This document shows, piece after piece, positions 16,461 to 58,441 of a DNA stretch of 64,000 bases. Source of the stretch: Anaerolineae bacterium (GTDB lineage: Bacteria; Chloroflexota; Anaerolineae; Caldilineales; Caldilineaceae); contig JAUIHI010000036.1 of the NCBI GenBank assembly GCA_030432295.1, positions 1 to 64,000 of the forward strand. The letters run 5' to 3'. The notes below the pieces were generated by a model. That model made no database searches and was not told where the DNA came from. It saw nothing but the letters and a program-made list of their open reading frames with translations. Made by a program: the position numbers and the translations under genes. The first letter of the stretch is position 1; each line of letters opens with the position of its first letter.

Positions 16461-16524
16461 GGTTGATTGGTTCACTGGTTGATTGGGCTGTGCACGTCCC
16501 AATCAACCAGTGAACCAATCAACC
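16461..16524. repeat. 27-bp perfect hairpin (TTGATTGGTT family)
   Basis: Arms 16461-16487 and 16498-16524 are perfect complements, loop CTGTGCACGT. It occupies the gap between the mutase subunit stop (16531) and the meaB start. The same words occur at 33978-34048, 39281-39333 and 51524-51567. Confidence 0.9.
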
Positions 16525-22038: not shown

Positions 22039-23052
22039 CTAAAACAGATTCAAATTCCCCTGGGCCTCAATCCAGAAATGGTCATAGACCCCAGCGACCT
22101 CAGGAATCGGAATGGCAAAGGGCAGCGACGCTCCCGGCGCGAGGGTCTGCCCGCCCAGGAAGATGTCGGCCATATCCACCACTTCGCCGGCCGCGTCGTA
22201 AAAGGTGACTGCTACCACAATCGACGTCAGCGTACTCTCCTGCTCGTTGTGAATCTGTCCCGTCACTTCACCCTTGCCCCCCGTGCCCTGGCCGACCGCC
22301 CCTTCCACAACCGTCAGATAGCGAAATTCGATCAGACTCACATCTTCCCAGGTGACGGTCAGCTCATAGCGTTCCACCGCCGAGACCAGATTCTCCACTT
22401 TCAGTTTGAAGGGATTGCCCACCTCCGGCTCGGTCATGGGCAGACTGGTAAGGGCCTGGCCCGCGGCCACCAGTTTGCCCCCACTGTCGTAGAAGTTGGC
22501 GATGACCTTCGCCCCGTAGACGGCCACCCCGCTGGTGTTCAGCACCTCCCCCACCACCACATAATTCGAGCCGTCGGAGAATCCCCGATGGCTGGCGACG
22601 AAGATGCCCGTGGGATAGGGCGTCTTTGTGGGCGCGGGGGTGGGCGGCTCAGTGGGGGCCGTTGTCGGCGTTGTGGGGGGTACGGAAGTGGGCACGGAAG
22701 TGGGCACTGAAGTGGGCACTGAAGTGGGCACGGAAGTGGGCACGGAAGTGGGCACTGAAGTCGGCTCGGGGGTCGGACTGGCGGGCGGCGCTGGTGTATT
22801 AGTCGCAGGCGGAAGGGCGGTCGCCGTCTCGGCGGGGGGAATGGGTGTGCCGGTAGGCGTCTCCGCTGGCCCATCGACAATGCCCACAGAAACCGGCGTC
22901 GCTGTGGCCTCTATTGCCGCTGGATCCGTGGGCGCGGCTGTGGACCCTTGCACCACCGCCCGGCCCTGGGGCTGGACCGGTGTGGGCACGACACAGCCCG
23001 CAACCCCCAACAGAATTGCCAGCAGGACAGAAAAGGTAACGTATCGTCTCAT
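22039..23052 (-). CDS. FxLYD-domain lipoprotein with PTSV repeat linker
   Basis: 337 residues from the ATG at 23052 (GGGAGG upstream). The signal peptide ends in lipobox LLGVAGC, so the mature protein is lipid-anchored outside the membrane. A Thr/Pro-rich linker contains consecutive PTSV units encoded by a 12-bp tandem repeat (22684-22767). The C-terminal half holds two FxLYD-like beta domains (VVGEVLNTSGVAVYGAKVIA with YDSGGKLVAAG, and VTGQIHNEQESTLTSIVVAV with FYDAAGEVV). Such domains are extracellular beta-sandwiches, often of unknown ligand. Confidence 0.85.
   Translation of the reverse strand: MRRYVTFSVLLAILLGVAGCVVPTPVQPQGRAVVQGSTAAPTDPAAIEATATPVSVGIVDGPAETPTGTPIPPAETATALPPATNTPAPPASPTPEPTSVPTSVPTSVPTSVPTSVPTSVPTSVPPTTPTTAPTEPPTPAPTKTPYPTGIFVASHRGFSDGSNYVVVGEVLNTSGVAVYGAKVIANFYDSGGKLVAAGQALTSLPMTEPEVGNPFKLKVENLVSAVERYELTVTWEDVSLIEFRYLTVVEGAVGQGTGGKGEVTGQIHNEQESTLTSIVVAVTFYDAAGEVVDMADIFLGGQTLAPGASLPFAIPIPEVAGVYDHFWIEAQGNLNLF
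22684..22767. repeat. 12-bp tandem repeat within the lipoprotein gene
   Basis: Six near-identical units of (G/T)GAAGTGGGCAC and a seventh degenerate unit, in phase with codons, each encoding Pro-Thr-Ser-Val on the minus strand. Copy-number change would alter linker length without frameshift. Confidence 0.9.
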
Positions 23053-37159: not shown

Positions 37160-37332
37160 ATACCGATAAAATGTACTGGTCAACGGGATGGTGGAATGGC
37201 TATTTCTTAACGCAAAGGTGCAAAGAGGCAAAGGCACAGAGAGAAAAGCGATTTCTTTGCGTCTCTGCACCTTTGCGTCATTGCGTTGAAAATTCCACCA
37301 TCTTCTTGACTACTACATAAATACCGATAAAA
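37157..37332. repeat. hairpin element bracketed by exact 15-bp direct repeats
   Basis: TAAATACCGATAAAA occurs at 37157-37171 and again at 37318-37332. Between them lies an inverted repeat with outer arms GATGGTGGAAT (37187-37197) and ATTCCACCATC (37292-37302) and inner AACGCAAAGGTGCAAAGAG against CTCTGCACCTTTGCGT. The first direct repeat contains the ctaA stop codon. The arrangement looks like an inserted element with a target duplication. Confidence 0.85.
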
Positions 37333-49167: not shown

Positions 49168-50517
49168 ATGCGTTCTCTGACCCTCAAACTCACCCTGGCT
49201 TTTTTGATTGTCGGACTCTCCGGCGCGGCGCTGGTCGCGCTCTTTTCTGTCAGCAATACATCCAACGCCTTCGACCGTTTCCGCTCTGAGCAGGCATTAC
49301 AGGGCTTTGCCACCGAAATGCAGAGCTACTACGAGCGCACCGGTTCCTGGGAGGGCGTGGACAATCTCTCCCGACGACCACCGCCGAACAACAACGGACC
49401 CTTGCCCGATCTCGTCCCGCAGATTCTGGTTGACAAAAAGGGTTCTGTTCTGATCGCCTTCCCCCCCTATCGTCCCGGCCAGACTCTGCCGGTAAATGTG
49501 TTGGGTCAGGGCATTGCGGTCGAAGTTAACGGAGAGCAGGTGGGGACGGTTCTCAATGTGGGCAATACGAGCCGTACAGCCCAGGATCGTCTTTTTCTGG
49601 CCCAGCTCTCCCAGGCCCTCATCTGGGCCGCGCTGGGCGCAACACTTTTTGCCCTGCTGCTGGGATTGGGACTGGCCCGCACCCTCACCCGGCCACTCGT
49701 CGCGCTGACCCAGGCTGTGCGCCGTATCGCCGGTGGGGATTTCGGCCAGACTGTAGCCGTCGAGTCCAAAGATGAGATCGGCCAGTTGGCTGGGGCTTTC
49801 AACCAGATGAGCAGCGAGCTGGCCCACTCGGCCCACCTGCGCCGCCAGATGACCGCGGACATCGCCCACGAACTGCGCACACCCCTCAGTGTGCTGATGG
49901 GCTACACCGAATCTCTCTCCGATGGGGTGCTGCAACCCACCCCCGCCATCCTGCGCGCCATGCACGAAGAGAGCCGCCTGCTCAGCCATCTGGTGGACGA
50001 TTTGCGCACCCTCTCCCTGGCCGATGCCGGGGAACTGACCCTCAACCGGCAGCTCATTGCCCCGGCTGAATTGCTGGAACGGGTGGCGGCCTCCTTTGCG
50101 TCCAGAGCCCGGGCCAAAGGCGTCGATCTGCGGCTGGAAATCGGCCCGCTATTGCCCCCGGTATCTCTGGACCCGGAACGCATTGTACAGGTGTTGGGCA
50201 ATCTGGTGGGCAACGCCATCCGCTACACGCCCACCGGGGGCACAGTCACATTGCGGGGGCTGGCTGCGAATGGAGGGGTGCTGCTTCAGGTGGCAGACAC
50301 GGGGGCTGGCATCGCGCCGGAGCAGTTGCCCTATATTTTTGAGCGTTTTTATAAAGAAGACACAGCGCGTACGGTTGACGAAACAGAGTCCGGGCTGGGA
50401 CTGAGCATCGCCAAATCCCTGGTGGAATTGCACGGGGGAAAGCTGAGCGCGGAGAGTGAGGTGGGGCGGGGGACGGTGATGGGTGTGTGGCTACCCGGCG
50501 GCGGAAGTGAACAGTGA
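49168..50517 (+). CDS. sensor histidine kinase
   Basis: 449 residues. Membrane helix about 8-28, external sensor region with YYERTGSWEGVDNL (closely similar to the other kinase in this window), second membrane helix about 148-170, HAMP about 171-223, phosphoacceptor H234 in DIAHELRTPL, N-box NLVGNAIRYTPTGG, DTGAGI, and SGLGLSIAKSLVELHGG. Its partner is the regulator directly upstream. The stop codon (50515-50517) lies inside the following hairpin repeat. Confidence 0.94.
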   Translation: MRSLTLKLTLAFLIVGLSGAALVALFSVSNTSNAFDRFRSEQALQGFATEMQSYYERTGSWEGVDNLSRRPPPNNNGPLPDLVPQILVDKKGSVLIAFPPYRPGQTLPVNVLGQGIAVEVNGEQVGTVLNVGNTSRTAQDRLFLAQLSQALIWAALGATLFALLLGLGLARTLTRPLVALTQAVRRIAGGDFGQTVAVESKDEIGQLAGAFNQMSSELAHSAHLRRQMTADIAHELRTPLSVLMGYTESLSDGVLQPTPAILRAMHEESRLLSHLVDDLRTLSLADAGELTLNRQLIAPAELLERVAASFASRARAKGVDLRLEIGPLLPPVSLDPERIVQVLGNLVGNAIRYTPTGGTVTLRGLAANGGVLLQVADTGAGIAPEQLPYIFERFYKEDTARTVDETESGLGLSIAKSLVELHGGKLSAESEVGRGTVMGVWLPGGGSEQ

Positions 50518-50560
50518 ACAGTACTCAGTGGGTATAACCCCGACTGAGTACTGTTCACTG
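50512..50560. repeat. 18-bp perfect hairpin over the kinase stop
   Basis: CAGTGAACAGTACTCAGT (50512-50529) and ACTGAGTACTGTTCACTG (50543-50560). It contains the stop codon of the rightward kinase and lies between it and the leftward SPFH gene, where it could terminate both. Confidence 0.88.
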
Positions 50561-52772: not shown

Positions 52773-53744
52773 ATGTCCCATTCACGAACTTTCGTACTCT
52801 ATCTGTTTCTTCTGATTCTTATCAGTGGTTGTGTCCCGCCTCCGCCCACGACGACATCGGGCAAACTGCGGGTGGTAACGACCGTTTCGCCCATCACAAA
52901 TATCATCCAGAATGTGGGCGGCGACCGCATCGAAGTGACGGGTATTGTGCCCGAAGGGGTCAACTCCCACACCTTCGAGCCAGCCCCGTCCGACGCTCGT
53001 CTGCTGGCCCAGGCGGATATTATCTTTGTCAACGGCCTCTTTTTGGAAGAGCCGACGATCAAACTGGCCGAAGCCAACAAAGGGGAGGGGGTGGAGATTG
53101 TCTCCCTGGGCGAGCAGACGGTGACGCCGGAGGAGTACGTCTTCGACTTCTCCTTCCCCGCAGAGGCGGGCAACCCCAACCCCCACCTCTGGATGAATCC
53201 CCTCTACGCGGCCCGTTACGCTGAACTGGTGGCGGAGAGTCTGGCCGCCGCAGACCCGGCCAACGCCGATTTCTACAGGGCCAACGCCGCGGCCTTTGGC
53301 GAACGCATCGACGCGCTGGACAGTGCCATCGCGGCCACCGCTGAAACGATTCCTGCCGAGAACCGCCGCCTGCTCACCTATCACGACTCCTTCGCCTACT
53401 TTGCGCCCCGCTATGGCTTTACGGTACTGGGCGCGGTCCAGCCCGCCGACTTCTCCGAGCCGTCTGCCCAGGAAGTGGCCGGACTGATCACCCAACTGCG
53501 GGAAGAGGAAATCCCGGCCATCTTCGGCTCGGAAGTCTTCCCCTCGCCCATTTTGGAGCAGATCGCCAAAGAATCCGGCGCTGTCTTCATCGACCAACTG
53601 CGGGACGACGACCTGCCCGGCGAACCCGGCGACGCCAACCACTCCTATTTCGGGCTGATGGTGGAGGATATGCGGGTGATGGCGGATGCCCTGGGTGGCG
53701 ACGCCAGTGGGCTGGACGGGATCGATACGGCGAATCTGCGCTGA
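52773..53744 (+). CDS. zinc/manganese-type substrate-binding lipoprotein (ZnuA/TroA fold)
   Basis: 323 residues. Signal peptide with lipobox LILISGC (lipidated C20), then a cluster A-I metal-binding fold: VVTTVSPITNIIQNVGGDRI, GVNSHTFEP with H66, NPNPHLWMNP with H138 and LTYHDSFAYFAPRYGFTVLG with H204, plus a C-terminal EVFPSPILEQIAKESGAVF. These are the usual three His and an acidic ligand. It hands metal to an ABC importer, but no permease or ATPase is adjacent. Metal identity is uncertain. Confidence 0.88.
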   Translation: MSHSRTFVLYLFLLILISGCVPPPPTTTSGKLRVVTTVSPITNIIQNVGGDRIEVTGIVPEGVNSHTFEPAPSDARLLAQADIIFVNGLFLEEPTIKLAEANKGEGVEIVSLGEQTVTPEEYVFDFSFPAEAGNPNPHLWMNPLYAARYAELVAESLAAADPANADFYRANAAAFGERIDALDSAIAATAETIPAENRRLLTYHDSFAYFAPRYGFTVLGAVQPADFSEPSAQEVAGLITQLREEEIPAIFGSEVFPSPILEQIAKESGAVFIDQLRDDDLPGEPGDANHSYFGLMVEDMRVMADALGGDASGLDGIDTANLR

Positions 53745-53754
53745 GAGAATAGCT

Positions 53755-53837
53755 ACCACTGAGTCACAGAGCGCACTGAGGTTCACAGAGAAGGAAGAAA
53801 TCTCACTGGTTCTCAGTGTCCTCTGTGACTCAGTGGT
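53755..53837. repeat. 17-bp perfect hairpin repeat (CACTGAGTCACAGAG)
   Basis: ACCACTGAGTCACAGAG (53755-53771) and CTCTGTGACTCAGTGGT (53821-53837), with GCACTGAGG and TTCTCAGTG nested inside. It lies between convergent genes. Confidence 0.88.
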
Positions 53838-53857
53838 GAAAAATCGGTTTTCTCCGC

Positions 53858-56635
53858 TTACTCCCGCCGAAAAATGACTTCGCCGTTCGACGTGGCACGA
53901 GGCGTTGGGGCCACTTTCCCCTTCCGCAACACCTCCAACAGCGCCAGCGCCAGTGCCTTCGTCTCCAGCAGCGGACGATCCCCCCCGTCGTTGAGCAGTA
54001 CCGGCCCCACACAGGCCGGGCAGCCGAAACGACAGCCGCAGCCCCGGATCATCTCCTGCGCGCTGGCCAGCATCTCCCCGTGTCGCTCGAACAACTGCTG
54101 GCTGAATCCCAGCCCGGCCGCGACGTGCTCGAAGATGTAAATACGGGGCGAGTTCTGAGGGGCGAGTTGCGAGTTGCGAGTTGCGATCTCGTCTGTTTTG
54201 GGACCGCCGACCGCTGACTGCTGACCGCCATTTGCCGTCTGCCGTCCGCCGTTCGCCGCCCTCACCACAGCCATCCCCAGATCATTCCTGTCGCACATCA
54301 GATAGAGCGAGGCCAGATTGCCCAGTGCGTAGCCCAGCCCGTCCAGCCCGCTGCGGGTACGCACGCCCGCTTCCAGCCGCCGGTGACAGCGCTGGCAGAG
54401 CAGCCTGAGATTGCTCTGCCGGTTGGCAAGCTGGTAGTTTTCGTTGTGGCCGGGGATGTAGCCAAAAGTGCGAAAGGGCGTCAGGTGATGGACGTCGTGC
54501 TGGCGACCTTCCGGTTCGGGCGTGCCGCATTGGGTACAGGCGTAGCCATCCCGCGCCCGCACTTTGGCCCGCTGCTCCTGCCAGTTGGGGCCGTAGTCGT
54601 TGGGCGAATCCCGCCACTGGTCCGCCAGCATCAGAATTCCCTGGGCCGCGGGTGTCACTTCCAGCCAATAGCCGGTGGTTTCCAGAATGTGGGGCGGATA
54701 GTCCAGAGGATAGACGCCCAGATTTTCGTGGGTGTAGCGGCGCACCCGCCGATAGTCTCTGACGGTTGTCGTCACCCGCAGCTCCCCATGACCCACCGCC
54801 GCGCTGCCGTCCGTGCGCTCCCCGTGGACGGCCAGCACGACTGTCTCGCTCTCGCTGTTGGCCTGCGTGTAGAAGTCCACCTCCACTGCCCGCACACTGG
54901 CAACCCGCGCTTCCCAGTCCAACTTTTCCACCAGATAGTTCTGCCCCTCGTGGATGTAGACCGCGCCGTCGTGGACGAGGAGCGGCGCGCTCTCCCCGTC
55001 GATCTCCCCCACCAGCCGGGTAACACCGTCGGCGTCCACTGCCTGAATCACAAACGGGTCGTTGCCAGCACTGCGCAGACTGATCTGCCGGGCGGGGTAG
55101 GCGTCGCCTTGCCAGAGAAAACGCCCCGCGTAGTCGCCCACATCGCCGCTTTCTGCCAGCAGGGCCAGCACATCGGCGGTGATGGGTGAGCGGCCAAAGC
55201 TCTCTCCGGCCACAAAGGGCAGTTCAAAGGCGGCGCAGCGCAACTGGTCCACCAGCAGCATCAGATTGTCCGGGTTGATGACCGCCTGCTCCGGCGAGCG
55301 CTCGAAGAAGAATTCCGGCTGGCTGACCAGATACTGGTCCAGCGCGCCGGCAGTGGCGACCAGAATCGCCAGGGACGCCTCCGCCGTGCGCCCGGCCCGA
55401 CCCATCTGCTGCCAGGCGCTGGCGATTGTGCCAGGATAGCCGCACAGAATTGCGGCCTCCAACTGGCCGATGTCGATGCCCAACTCCAGCGCGTTTGTCG
55501 TCACCACCCCCCGCACTTCCCCGGAACGCAGACCCGCCTCAATCGCCCGCCGCTCCTCCGGCAGATAGCCGCCCCGGTAGCCGTGGACAGGTTGGGGATT
55601 GGGGATTGGGGATTGGGGATTGGGAGCGGATCCGTCGCCCAGTCTCCAATCCCCAGTCCCCAGTCTCCGCATTCTATCCCGAATGTACGTCAACAGAACT
55701 TCGACGGTCATCCGAGCGCGAGCGAAGACGATTGTTTGCAGACCGCCCTGAAGGGTGCGCACGGCCAGTTCCTGGCTTTCCAGCACACTGCTGCGGCGCA
55801 GGCCCTGCACCGGATCGAAGAGGGGCGGGTTGTAGAGAAGGATGTGCTTCTCGCCCTGGGGCGCGCCGTTGCGGTCGATGACTGTCACCGGCTGCTCGAT
55901 GAGCTTCTCGGCCAGTTGTTGTGGATTGGCAATCGTCGCGCTGGTGAGGACGAAGCGGGGCTGGCTGCCGTAGAAGGCGGCGATCCGTTGCAGGCGGCGC
56001 AGGACATTGGCCACGTGGCTGCCGAAGACGCCCCGGTAGGTGTGCATTTCGTCGATGACGACCATTTGCAGCCCCGCGAAGAAGCGTTCCCAGCCCGCGT
56101 GGTAGGGCAGGATGCCCATATGCAGCATATCCGGGTTGGTGATGAGCAGGCGGCTCTCCCGGCGGATGGCGGCCCGCTGTCCGGTGGGCGTGTCGCCGTC
56201 GTAGGTGGAAGATTTAAGATTGAAGATTGGCGATTGATGATTGCTTGAATCTGCAATCATCAATCGCCAATCTTCAATATCTTCTAATTGGTCGTGGGCC
56301 AGGGCTTTGGTGGGGAAGAGATAGAGCGCAGTAGCGGTGGGATCGCTGAGTAGCTGGTGCAGGACGGGCAGGGTGTAGCAGAGGGTTTTCCCGCTGGCCG
56401 TGGGCGTGACGACGGCGATGTTCTCCCCGGCCAGAGCGCGGGTGACGGCTTCCTGCTGGTGGCTGTAGAGATGGGCAATGCCCCGCCGGGCCAACGCGTC
56501 CCGCAGGGCCGGGTGCAGATTGTCGGGAATCGGCGCTGTCTGGGCCGTCCGGGCTGGGAGGGTTTGCCAGGCGGTCACATTCGCCATAAAGCCGGTGTCC
56601 CGGCGCAGGTCGGCGAGGAGAGGGGTAAGGGACAT
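53858..56635 (-). CDS. YprA/MrfA-like DEAD-box helicase with inserted HNH domain
   Basis: 925 residues. Superfamily 2 motifs: VVTPTASGKTLCYTLPVLHQ, VIDEMHTYRGVFGSHVANVL (Walker B as DEMH), LTSATIANPQ, TNALELGIDIGQLEAAILCG and QMGRAGRTAEASLAILV. The C-terminus is a DUF1998 zinc domain with C866/C868/C872/C875 in CGCRFGCPACVGP. Between them, about residues 695-755, is an HNH nuclease-type domain: CTQCGTPEPE, HDVHHLTPF, NLRLLCQRCHRRLE. MrfA acts in DNA-damage repair in Bacillus; the HNH could make this a nuclease-helicase. Three in-frame stretches (about 54150-54256, 55591-55668, 56211-56285) are hairpin or low-complexity repeats of intergenic type. Confidence 0.9.
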   Translation of the reverse strand: MSLTPLLADLRRDTGFMANVTAWQTLPARTAQTAPIPDNLHPALRDALARRGIAHLYSHQQEAVTRALAGENIAVVTPTASGKTLCYTLPVLHQLLSDPTATALYLFPTKALAHDQLEDIEDWRLMIADSSNHQSPIFNLKSSTYDGDTPTGQRAAIRRESRLLITNPDMLHMGILPYHAGWERFFAGLQMVVIDEMHTYRGVFGSHVANVLRRLQRIAAFYGSQPRFVLTSATIANPQQLAEKLIEQPVTVIDRNGAPQGEKHILLYNPPLFDPVQGLRRSSVLESQELAVRTLQGGLQTIVFARARMTVEVLLTYIRDRMRRLGTGDWRLGDGSAPNPQSPIPNPQPVHGYRGGYLPEERRAIEAGLRSGEVRGVVTTNALELGIDIGQLEAAILCGYPGTIASAWQQMGRAGRTAEASLAILVATAGALDQYLVSQPEFFFERSPEQAVINPDNLMLLVDQLRCAAFELPFVAGESFGRSPITADVLALLAESGDVGDYAGRFLWQGDAYPARQISLRSAGNDPFVIQAVDADGVTRLVGEIDGESAPLLVHDGAVYIHEGQNYLVEKLDWEARVASVRAVEVDFYTQANSESETVVLAVHGERTDGSAAVGHGELRVTTTVRDYRRVRRYTHENLGVYPLDYPPHILETTGYWLEVTPAAQGILMLADQWRDSPNDYGPNWQEQRAKVRARDGYACTQCGTPEPEGRQHDVHHLTPFRTFGYIPGHNENYQLANRQSNLRLLCQRCHRRLEAGVRTRSGLDGLGYALGNLASLYLMCDRNDLGMAVVRAANGGRQTANGGQQSAVGGPKTDEIATRNSQLAPQNSPRIYIFEHVAAGLGFSQQLFERHGEMLASAQEMIRGCGCRFGCPACVGPVLLNDGGDRPLLETKALALALLEVLRKGKVAPTPRATSNGEVIFRRE
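54150..54256. repeat. in-frame low-complexity repeat in the helicase, element C
   Basis: Tandem GCGAGTT units and a run of GCCG-type units (GACCGCTGACTGCTGACCGC). Read as GGRQTANGGQQSAVGG and TRNSQLAPQNS within the DUF1998 domain. Confidence 0.75.
55591..55668. repeat. in-frame hairpin repeat in the helicase, element A
   Basis: Tandem GGGGATT units followed by the inverted ATCCCCAGTCCCCAGTCTCC. On the minus strand it reads in frame as GTGDWRLGDGSAPNPQSPIP, inserted just before the conserved VHGYRGGYLPEERR motif. Confidence 0.85.
56219..56278. repeat. in-frame 25-bp perfect hairpin in the helicase, element B
   Basis: Arms 56219-56243 and 56254-56278 are exact complements, loop CTTGAATCTG. 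Read in frame as part of DWRLMIADSSNHQSPIFNLK, between the motif around ALAHDQLED and the conserved TYDGDTPTGQR. Confidence 0.9.
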
Positions 56636-56728
56636 AAATGGGATCGATTATTGGATATTTGGTTGAACAGCAGGGCCGCACGTTTCACGTTTGGACGAGC
56701 CGACAGGATTCTGTCTGCCGATTCTGGT

Positions 56729-58441
56729 TTACTGTGGGTGCAGCAGCCGGTGTACCTCCTGGGCACGATCGGCCTGCAACGCCTGTTCGGCCAACTGCCG
56801 CGCCGCGTCGCCATCGGTCAGGCGCACGGCCTCTTTGACCAGCGCCACCGCCGGGGCGACGACACTCACTTCTGTCACGCCCAGGCCGAAAAGAAGGGGG
56901 AAAATCGACGGGTCCCCCGCCATCTCCCCGCAGATGGCAACGGGAATGTCGGCCATCTGCCCGGCCTGACAGGCCATCCCAATCAGCCGCAGGACCGCGG
57001 GGTCCAGGGGGGAGGCCAGGCTGGCAACCGCACTGTTCACCCGATCTGCGGCCATTGTATATTGGGCCAGATCGTTTGTGCCGATGCTGAAAAAGTCTAC
57101 CAGCGGGGCCAGCCGGTCCGCCAGCAGCGCGGCCGCGGGCACTTCGATCATCACGCCGATCTGCAAAGGTCCACCGGGCTGGTGCTGCTCGGCATAGCCA
57201 GGAATGGCTTCCAGCACTTCCAGCACCCGATGAACTTCCACAACTTTGCTCACCATCGGCACGAGGATGCGCACGACACCGGTGAAGCCACTCTCCTGGG
57301 AGAGGGCGATGAGGGCCTGCAACTGATCCCGCAATAGCTCTGGGTGTTGGAGCAACAACCGGATGCCCCGGACACCCAGAAAAGGATTGCTCTCGGCGAT
57401 CCGGGGCAGATAGCGCACGGGTTTGTCGCCGCCGATGTCGAGCAGACGGACGGTGAGAATTTCCCCGGCTGCCTGTCTGTGGATCAGCCGGTAGGCATCG
57501 ATCTGCTCGGCAACAGTCGGCGGATTGGTGCGCTCCTGGAAAAGATATTCCGTGCGCAGCAGCCCGATGCCGTCGGCTCCGCTGCCCGCCACTTGCAGCA
57601 TATCCTCCTGGCTGTTGACGTTGGCGTGGACCAGCACCCGCTGTCCGTCCAGCGTCACCGCTGGCTCGTGGCTGTGAGATTCGGCGGTGACGCGAAAGGT
57701 CAGCAGCCGCTGCCGGGTTTGGGTGTAGCTATCGAGTAGTTCCGGGTCCGGTTCGACAACCAACCGCCCCTGCAAACCGTCCACCACCGCATTCTGGCCG
57801 GGCGGCAATTGCAGAACTGCCGTACCGACACTGCAAATCAGCGGAATGCCCAAACTGCGGGCCAGGATGGCCGTGTGGGCCGTGGGCGCGCTGCCAGCCA
57901 GGGCAATTCCCACCACACTTTCCGGCGAGAGATGGGTGGCGTCGTAAGGGGTCAAATCCTCGGCCAGGAGGATTGTGCCGGTGGGGAGGGCGGCCAGTTG
58001 ACCGGTCAGGGAGACGCCGCTCAGATGGGCCAGCAGCCGCTGCCCCACATCCCGGATGTCCACCGAGCGGCTGGCAAAGTAGTCGTCGCTCAGGTTTTGA
58101 AAAAGTTGGACCAGTTCGGATGTGACCTGCTGGGTGGCGGTGGCCGCGCTGGTTCCCCGATCAATCGCGGCACGCACGCCATCGGTCAGCAACTTGTCGT
58201 GCAAAATTTCCTGGTGGACAAGGAAGATGTCGGCCACCAGTGGATTCTCCATCCCGGCCAGTTGGGCCAGTTCGGCGTCTACTTTTTTGCGGGCATCCAG
58301 ATAACGCTGCCACTCATCTGCCGGGGATGTGGACTGTTCCACGGCTGCGCTGTAGGTGACATTGGGGAGAGATGTATAGGTGTAGAGTTTGCCGATACCC
58401 ACGCCGGGGGCCGCAGGCAGGCCGGAGAATATCTGTTGCAG
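56729..58441 (-). CDS. ptsI: PEP-protein phosphotransferase (enzyme I)
   Basis: 570 residues if read from CTG at 58441. EI transfers phosphate from PEP to HPr. Seen: N-terminal FSGLPAAPGVGIGKLYTY, active-site His in AGSAPTAHTAILARSLG, PEP-binding domain with GIGLLRTEYLFQERTNPPT, VRLLDIGGDKPVRYL, NPFLGVRGIRL, SIGTNDLAQYTMAADRVN and VAICGEMAGDPS. The first standard start is GTG at 58402, which would cut into the conserved FSGLPAAPG segment. CTG at 58441 has AGAGAGG 7 bases upstream and makes the active His residue 189, the number known for E. coli EI. An upstream in-frame TAG excludes longer starts. Confidence 0.92.
   Translation of the reverse strand: MQQIFSGLPAAPGVGIGKLYTYTSLPNVTYSAAVEQSTSPADEWQRYLDARKKVDAELAQLAGMENPLVADIFLVHQEILHDKLLTDGVRAAIDRGTSAATATQQVTSELVQLFQNLSDDYFASRSVDIRDVGQRLLAHLSGVSLTGQLAALPTGTILLAEDLTPYDATHLSPESVVGIALAGSAPTAHTAILARSLGIPLICSVGTAVLQLPPGQNAVVDGLQGRLVVEPDPELLDSYTQTRQRLLTFRVTAESHSHEPAVTLDGQRVLVHANVNSQEDMLQVAGSGADGIGLLRTEYLFQERTNPPTVAEQIDAYRLIHRQAAGEILTVRLLDIGGDKPVRYLPRIAESNPFLGVRGIRLLLQHPELLRDQLQALIALSQESGFTGVVRILVPMVSKVVEVHRVLEVLEAIPGYAEQHQPGGPLQIGVMIEVPAAALLADRLAPLVDFFSIGTNDLAQYTMAADRVNSAVASLASPLDPAVLRLIGMACQAGQMADIPVAICGEMAGDPSIFPLLFGLGVTEVSVVAPAVALVKEAVRLTDGDAARQLAEQALQADRAQEVHRLLHPQ

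Follow-up and report, generated by a model that had tools for sequence, protein, structure and literature searches.

Heptanucleotide repeat arrays in three loops of an MrfA/YprA-like helicase gene from a Caldilineaceae bacterium

The window analysed here is a stretch of 64,000 nucleotides from an Anaerolineae bacterium (contig JAUIHI010000036.1), in which an MrfA/YprA-like helicase gene carries seven-base-pair (7-bp) repeats at three sites. These stretches are probably members of a dispersed class of heptanucleotide repeats that have grown in variable loops of a normal helicase and are read through as protein. Most likely the insert serves no particular purpose in the enzyme and is tolerated repeat DNA that rewrites its loops. 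As the preliminary description of the sequence had placed them, the three stretches lie inside an unbroken open reading frame (ORF) at 53858-56635, beside the motifs TYDGDTP and VHGYRGGYLPEE and, for the third, inside the MZB zinc domain. The genome of the window (G000) comprises 6.72 Mb in 61 contigs and lies near records named Litorilinea aerophila metagenome-assembled genome and Caldilineaceae bacteria, Chloroflexota.

Tandem arrays in the window were detected with Tandem Repeats Finder (TRF). The three stretches are heptanucleotide arrays and two of them are hairpins (Table 1). First, site 1 (TRF units GAAGATT and CTTCAAT) has arms at 56219-56244 and 56253-56278, paired at 26 of 26 positions around an 8-nt loop; the hairpin reported earlier as perfect over 25 bp is indeed perfect, its length being 26. 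As mRNA this site folds at -48 kcal/mol with a z-score of -12.9. Second, site 2 consists of arrays at 55592-55624 (TTGGGGA, 4.7 units, 100% match) and 55639-55668 (TRF unit CCCAGTC), which together form an 84% inverted repeat, have a z-score of -4.6 as RNA and place four GGGG tracts on the template strand. The encoded peptide reads LGTGDWRLG...PNPQSPIPNPQ. Third, the arrays of site 3 lie at 54162-54186, 54202-54228 and 54227-54258 (TRF units GCGAGTT, GACCGCC and GCCGTCC) and encode AANGGRQTANGGQQSAVGG...IATRNSQLA. A hairpin was looked for at site 3 and none was found, the RNA fold having a z-score of -0.34.

Table 1. Positions of the helicase gene, its repeat sites and the intergenic hairpins
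Feature	Position	Strand	Description
MrfA/YprA-like helicase gene	53858..56635	(-)	Pfam domains and match to solved YprA
Site 1	56209..56278	(-)	Degenerate heptad hairpin; loop region aa 117-144; between FPTKALAHDQ and TYDGDTP
Site 2	55592..55668	(-)	GGGGATT array facing CCAGTCT/CCAATCC array; loop region aa 322-351; immediately before VHGYRGGYLPEE
Site 3	54162..54258	(-)	Three successive heptamer arrays without hairpin; loop region aa 793-830, in MZB
Intergenic hairpin	53755..53837		ACCACTGAGTCACAGAG...CTCTGTGACTCAGTGGT, other word family; comparator adjoining the helicase
Intergenic hairpin	16461..16524		About 8-bp units, 27-nt arms; comparator
Intergenic hairpin	50512..50560		Arms of about 7-bp units; comparator
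Second hairpin family, copies	L049 4254-4323 and 14881-14951; L050 17635-17704; L054 15300-15374; L045 8112-8184		

Sequences identical to arrays of two of the sites occur elsewhere in the genome. An array lying between genes (L050 7593-7622) has 100% identity with that of site 2 across 30 nt, and the GCGAGTT array of site 3 finds a 25/25 match. A whole-genome search with the site-1 hairpin recovered the hairpin, its inverted arm and, beyond these, just two weak partial matches; no second copy was found. The earlier proposal that all three are the same kind of repeat as those between genes thus stands for sites 2 and 3, and site 1 is akin to the intergenic hairpins only in style. A single mobile hairpin family is ruled out by the same search. 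The broader idea that discrete mobile palindromic elements, either Rickettsia-palindromic-like or RAYT-moved REPINs, were inserted three times is unlikely. It would account for the in-frame hairpins at two sites, and RAYT-type (Y1_Tnp) transposase matches do occur at seven places in the genome, six of them above the cut-off, with heptamer arrays near two (L168, L170). However, site 1 has no second copy, site 3 is not a hairpin, the words vary between species with no fixed consensus, and the hairpins at four of those seven loci (L169, L171, L173, L174) are of other sequence.

Repeats of this period are common in the genome. A sample of 1.264 Mb, which combines the window with 60 stretches of seven large contigs and is not a random draw, holds 78 period-7 arrays versus 0 in one simulation; period 7 stands out there among the periods indivisible by three. 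Within 464 kb, one detector found 15 arrays with strict and 30 with laxer settings versus 0 in one and three simulated runs respectively, and hairpins numbered 73 versus 0 (one run); simulated sequences were first-order Markov versions of the same sequence. With genes called by a home-made hexamer caller, 48 of the 78 arrays fall in the 15% of the sample outside predicted genes and the other 30 lie within 17 predicted genes, six of them in this helicase. Hairpins in the sample number 190, of which six are in predicted genes; these include the two in the helicase and one that extends beyond its gene's end. Within the window, 12 of 14 hairpins are intergenic by the gene calls, the remaining two being helicase sites 1 and 2. 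A second intergenic hairpin family, starting approximately TGTATACACGGA and having arms of about 30 bp, has several similar copies in the sample.

Other enzymes show the pattern as well. One loop of PriA has arrays in all six genomes of the genus whose sequence reaches it (only in part for G002 and G004) and in none of 11 others. In TrpF, arrays occur in five of six same-genus genomes plus G018 and G015, with none in eight others, and the G005 gene has an apparent degenerate remnant of an array. Ten of the 17 genes were scanned, and further array-bearing genes match a PurL-type synthase, an aminotransferase, a CoA ligase and altronate dehydratase. Since 30 of the 78 arrays lie in 17 genes, with PriA and TrpF behaving alike, the helicase exemplifies a wider process that is not peculiar to it.

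The helicase loops were aligned in 27 loci from as many genomes; the fetched loci lack site 3 of G002, which is on another contig, and site 1 of G009 and G016. The loops of the window genome measure 84, 90 and 114 nt at sites 1, 2 and 3. Those of four class-level relatives (G038, G033, G037, G025) measure 57, 36 and 24 nt and those of a fifth (G035) 87, 51 and 27 nt, and the solved YprA has no extra residues at any of the three sites. A lag-7 array is present at one or more sites in 12 of the 27 genomes, namely all seven of the same genus and G020, G018, G017, G015 and G016; the other 15 are array-free, counting G035 with its one weak lag-7 stretch at site 3. All seven same-genus genomes have arrays at both site 1 and site 2, often with other words. 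Because the loops are short in four of the five class-level relatives and in YprA and the arrays are present in seven of seven same-genus genomes, the three stretches look like acquired, repeat-derived additions. The same comparison upholds the preliminary view that repeat additions are tolerated in frame between intact motifs. Shared residues in non-repetitive DNA, which would have marked the stretches as native, were not seen among these homologues; the relatives carry other words there.

Outside the loops, the helicases of the window genome and G006 agree at 774 of 828 residues, and within them at 13/28 (site 1), 28/30 (site 2) and 15/38 (site 3). Site 3 of G006 and G003 belongs to another word class, AEAQRRKDAEG encoded by GCAGAGG/GCAAAGG-like units, which resembles a window hairpin at 37210-37278. 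Perfect hairpins of differing sequence and with non-identical units are found at site 1 of G000 (26) and G002 (27) and at site 2 of G003 (29). A tree of the helicases built without the loops, from 26 of the 27 rows (L026 of G003 being too short), requires five changes of the array label, two of them forced by well-supported branches. At site 1 of G005 (L010) the right array has period 8 (96% at lag 8) opposite a left arm of period 7; unit length can thus vary within a site.

The loop words tend to follow the repeats of their own genome. Exact three-unit matches to GATTGAA, GATTGGA, GATTGGG and GATCGGG were counted on both strands of 19 genomes, a set that leaves out the array-free family genomes G009, G013 and G024; the matches overlap, so that long arrays are counted more than once. 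In that order of words, G015, whose loops are mostly GATTGAA, gave 37, 21, 1 and 0; G002, with GATTGGA loops, 0, 26, 2 and 1; G001, with GATTGGG and GATCGGG loops, 0, 1, 41 and 16; and G017, where site 1 has GATTGAA and site 2 has GGGGATT, 18, 1, 246 and 0. Six of the seven array-free family genomes searched have none of the four words, and G019 has four matches to GATTGAA. With the helicase's own copies deducted from each genome's pool of repeats, the mean loop-pool cosine was 0.87 versus 0.55 permuted (p 5e-5) in the ten genomes tested first; adding the unfavourable G003 and G016 weakens it to 0.73 versus 0.47 (p 0.0018, 12 array-bearing genomes). Genus members were also taken singly alongside four other genera; out of 120 pairings the true one came first five times and second once. 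Presence of a pool and presence of an array are associated by genus (Fisher p 0.005; 0.015 without G016). More widely, GATTGGN in three units matched 23 of 120 genomes drawn from the class, with a reversed control pattern also matching nine of the 120, up to 22 times in G138; GATTGGN in three units was not found in the class-level helicase genomes G025, G033, G035, G037 and G038.

Because 7 is not a multiple of 3, a heptamer array encodes one cyclic heptapeptide in all three frames, as was confirmed by translating six words. A stop-free word is therefore open in any frame, and only the total added length has to be a multiple of three. The preliminary description had attributed tolerance to the avoidance of stops in one frame, and this does not hold: stop-free arrays make up 24/30 in the sense direction of genes, 24/30 antisense and 75/96 of intergenic strands, against 0.777 for random heptamers of the same G+C. 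Stop avoidance as a filter is thus ruled out, the in-gene sense strand being no more stop-free than any of these. What does distinguish the coding strand is hydropathy. Of the 30 arrays, one is a tie and 29 are informative; in 26 of these 29 the sense peptide is less hydrophobic than the antisense one, and by gene the same holds for 15 of 17 (Wilcoxon p 8e-5). The filter for tolerance seems to be the polarity of the encoded peptide, and this strand bias suggests that selection may retain orientations encoding polar peptides such as NPQSPIP, RNSQLAT and TADGRRQ. A plain bias in strand composition would explain it poorly because C-rich words (CCCAATC) and purine-rich ones (GACGGCA) both occur on the coding strand. 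An AlphaFold2 model of the helicase has a mean pLDDT (predicted local distance difference test score) of 84.8, with values below 50 at residues 331-339 and 342-345 (site 2), 796-825 (site 3) and the tail 913-925; residues 131-140 in site 1 have 65, and a non-insert block at 381-390 has 63.

Several observations weigh against the reading of the loops as grown from each genome's own repeats. The window genome has no three-unit array of its own site-1 word (GATTGAA type), and with that word missing from the pool and the hairpin private to its genome, simple spread from the pool fits site 1 poorly. The pool of G003, an assembly of 970 contigs, did not yield its loop word GATTGGA. G017, in spite of its GATTGGG matches, and G020 are pool-bearing and array-free in both PriA and TrpF, as is G015 in PriA, which counts against a simple rule. 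The word-match tests are weakened because genomes of one genus are non-independent and the four words were picked after the loops were known. On the tree the array label shows clustering (4 of 500 shuffles were as low), the agreement of G000 and G006 at site 2 shows that not every loop is rewritten, and three of the 30 in-gene arrays sit at the extreme end of a called gene (L042 14376, L159 13589, L164 9989). No array was observed moving or changing length, and translation of the repeat stretches is inferred from the open frames. Long loops occur also in the array-free relatives G024, G013, G011 and G035, and in the first three of these they are ordinary sequence. Together with the variability of the loops across all homologues, these long loops would suit native, adaptive, fast-evolving disordered loops whose heptad look is incidental. 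That explanation is nevertheless highly improbable given the exact 7-bp periodicity and inverted repeats in the DNA, the identity of sites 2 and 3 to arrays elsewhere with no conservation of the peptide, and the same pattern in unrelated enzymes.

Two further explanations would give the repeats a function. Hairpins may be kept for an action in the mRNA, such as attenuation, pausing, stability or frameshifting. The folding energies of sites 1 and 2 favour such a role, and the perfect stems of differing sequence in G000, G002 and G003 would be expected from selection for pairing too. It is improbable, however, as the paired arms of site 1 are below threshold in G005, G020 and G017, site 3 is unstructured, and so few of the sampled hairpins lie within predicted genes. 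A conserved mRNA stem is ruled out by the missing site-1 pairing in some relatives, and a known RNA family by the absence of any Rfam match at gathering score within 53700-56800. Switches of phase variation based on repeat units are well known, and loss of one unit indivisible by three would shift the frame and so could toggle the gene. Such a switch is very unlikely here: every same-genus copy found is in frame, many arrays are imperfect, and arrays occur in PriA, TrpF and the PurL-type gene, where off-states would presumably be costly.

If the loops are indeed grown repeat DNA, several processes could have shaped them. Arrays may lengthen by replication slippage, copying through short homology may pass words from one dispersed array to another, and old arrays may decay through point mutation. 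Template switching inside the inverted repeat could create paired arms or keep them identical, and the perfect hairpins of differing sequence in G000, G002 and G003 point to such arm copying. Template switching is reportedly described for E. coli quasipalindromes. Within coding inverted repeats it is described in yeast (PMC8604942). Taken further, each genome may possess a heptamer "dialect", in which still-active array-to-array conversion through short homology and hairpin arm copying rewrite the arrays between genes as well as core-enzyme loops, with period 7 as the enabling feature; this extension is tentative. If true, it would be a general route from non-coding satellite DNA to disordered loops of conserved bacterial proteins. 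The arrays as observed are already a testable case of non-coding repeats and protein sequence evolving together, and lineage-specific "insertions" in such genomes may be repeat DNA and not adaptation. For the helicase, the species are natural replicates, one loop with different filler, for studying loop tolerance.

As in STRR-like repeats, the 7-bp tandem units occur far above chance and are dispersed and over-represented in non-coding DNA. The GGGG tracts of site 2 might also allow G-quadruplex formation, another trait considered for such repeats. The older cyanobacterial heptamer repeat STRR1 is CCCCA(A/G)T. By its named relatives the host is a Caldilineaceae-type member of the Chloroflexota, and such bacteria are not known to be intracellular. 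Kinship to the palindromic elements of Rickettsia, as first suggested, was not borne out: there is no common element sequence, and the site-1 hairpin, having no second copy, is not a Rickettsia-type element. The repeats are best placed with bacterial heptameric repeats. Nostoc and Xanthomonas have heptameric repeats GGGGA(T/C)T and GGGAATC, 68% of them intergenic in Nostoc (PMC4692102). The present arrays share with them the 7-bp unit, the dispersal, the intergenic majority with a minority in genes and the word GGGGATT, which is present at site 2 only, sites 1 and 3 having other words. They differ from Nostoc in the phylum, in having several words per genome, in the pairing of forward and inverted arrays as hairpins (few in Nostoc), and in that the words vary among related species and are found again in corresponding loops of homologous enzymes (PMC4692102).

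Heptamer arrays, some within ORFs, are also formed by TAACTGA in Beggiatoaceae, where the forward orientation creates stop codons in every frame and the reverse reads LSVISYQ (PMC4679880). A single word is involved there, most often immediately before start codons and, within genes, mainly at the protein periphery, unlike the many words here in internal loops of core enzymes. The heptanucleotide elements of Geobacter metallireducens place heptamers inside ORFs; they have one consensus and are listed as predicted regulatory RNA, and loops are not compared between species in the part of the paper available (PMC2700814). Rickettsia palindromic elements resemble sites 1 and 2, not 3, as in-frame palindromes inside ORFs, and they are ~150-bp families with a conserved peptide in unrelated metabolic genes, whereas here there is neither shared sequence nor a second site-1 copy (PMC10969869). 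Like the amino-acid tandem repeats of Borgs, the arrays are fast-evolving DNA repeats that create disordered protein regions, but all in-ORF units of Borgs are divisible by three (PMC9879509). Nematomorpha mitochondria have long perfect inverted repeats in translated genes, too, but both arms encode conserved protein regions there and variable loops here (PMC6649704). What sets the present case apart from Borg units, the best-studied parallel, and from fixed-element insertions is a 7-bp class in core-enzyme loops of several genera. Among the literature matches listed, no report of such repeats in Caldilineaceae was found, which is weak evidence of absence, nor one of species-specific heptamer words in homologous core-enzyme loops tracking the repeats of their own genome.

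The host gene is intact, an uninterrupted ORF of 925 codons. Its product matches the Pfam families DEAD, Helicase_C, HNH, MZB and ResIII, with WHD_HRQ1 slightly below its cut-off; DEAD, Helicase_C and MZB in that order, together with the match to YprA (6znp, the closest solved structure, E 5.9e-200), identify an MrfA/YprA helicase. The MZB domain spans residues 768-876 and encloses site 3. YprA of B. subtilis is also named MrfA and acts there in the repair of mitomycin-type damage. An HNH endonuclease domain (PF01844; window 54371-54538, residues 700-755) lies between the helicase core and MZB, where the solved YprA has only ~10 residues, and its Cys/His positions are almost invariant across a 37-row alignment, mostly of Chloroflexota. 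Apart from the helicase, a single upstream gene is all that aligns between the window and the fetched contigs (matches >150 bp).

Some minor observations concern other repeats. Of the transposase loci, L171 has a Y1/RAYT-like gene flanked on both sides by the palindrome GTAGGTGCGGTTTGTAACCGCAC, and L169 one with CCTTCCGGGAAG... twice on one side, which looks like an ordinary REP/RAYT arrangement. A tblastn search of repeat peptides against plasmids found three records (Nostoc, Photobacterium, Burkholderia), the best match having no listed gene in an incomplete gene table. The plasmid of Nostoc sp. TCL26-01 (NZ_CP040301.1, 26088-26225) contains DNA for RLEIGDW/NLQSPIS-like peptides with 53% identity to a made-up query, with no gene listed there. 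Lastly, a 12-bp tandem repeat of 7.7 copies (GGGCACGGAAGT) at window positions 22678-22769 spans the beginning of a predicted gene and sequence upstream.

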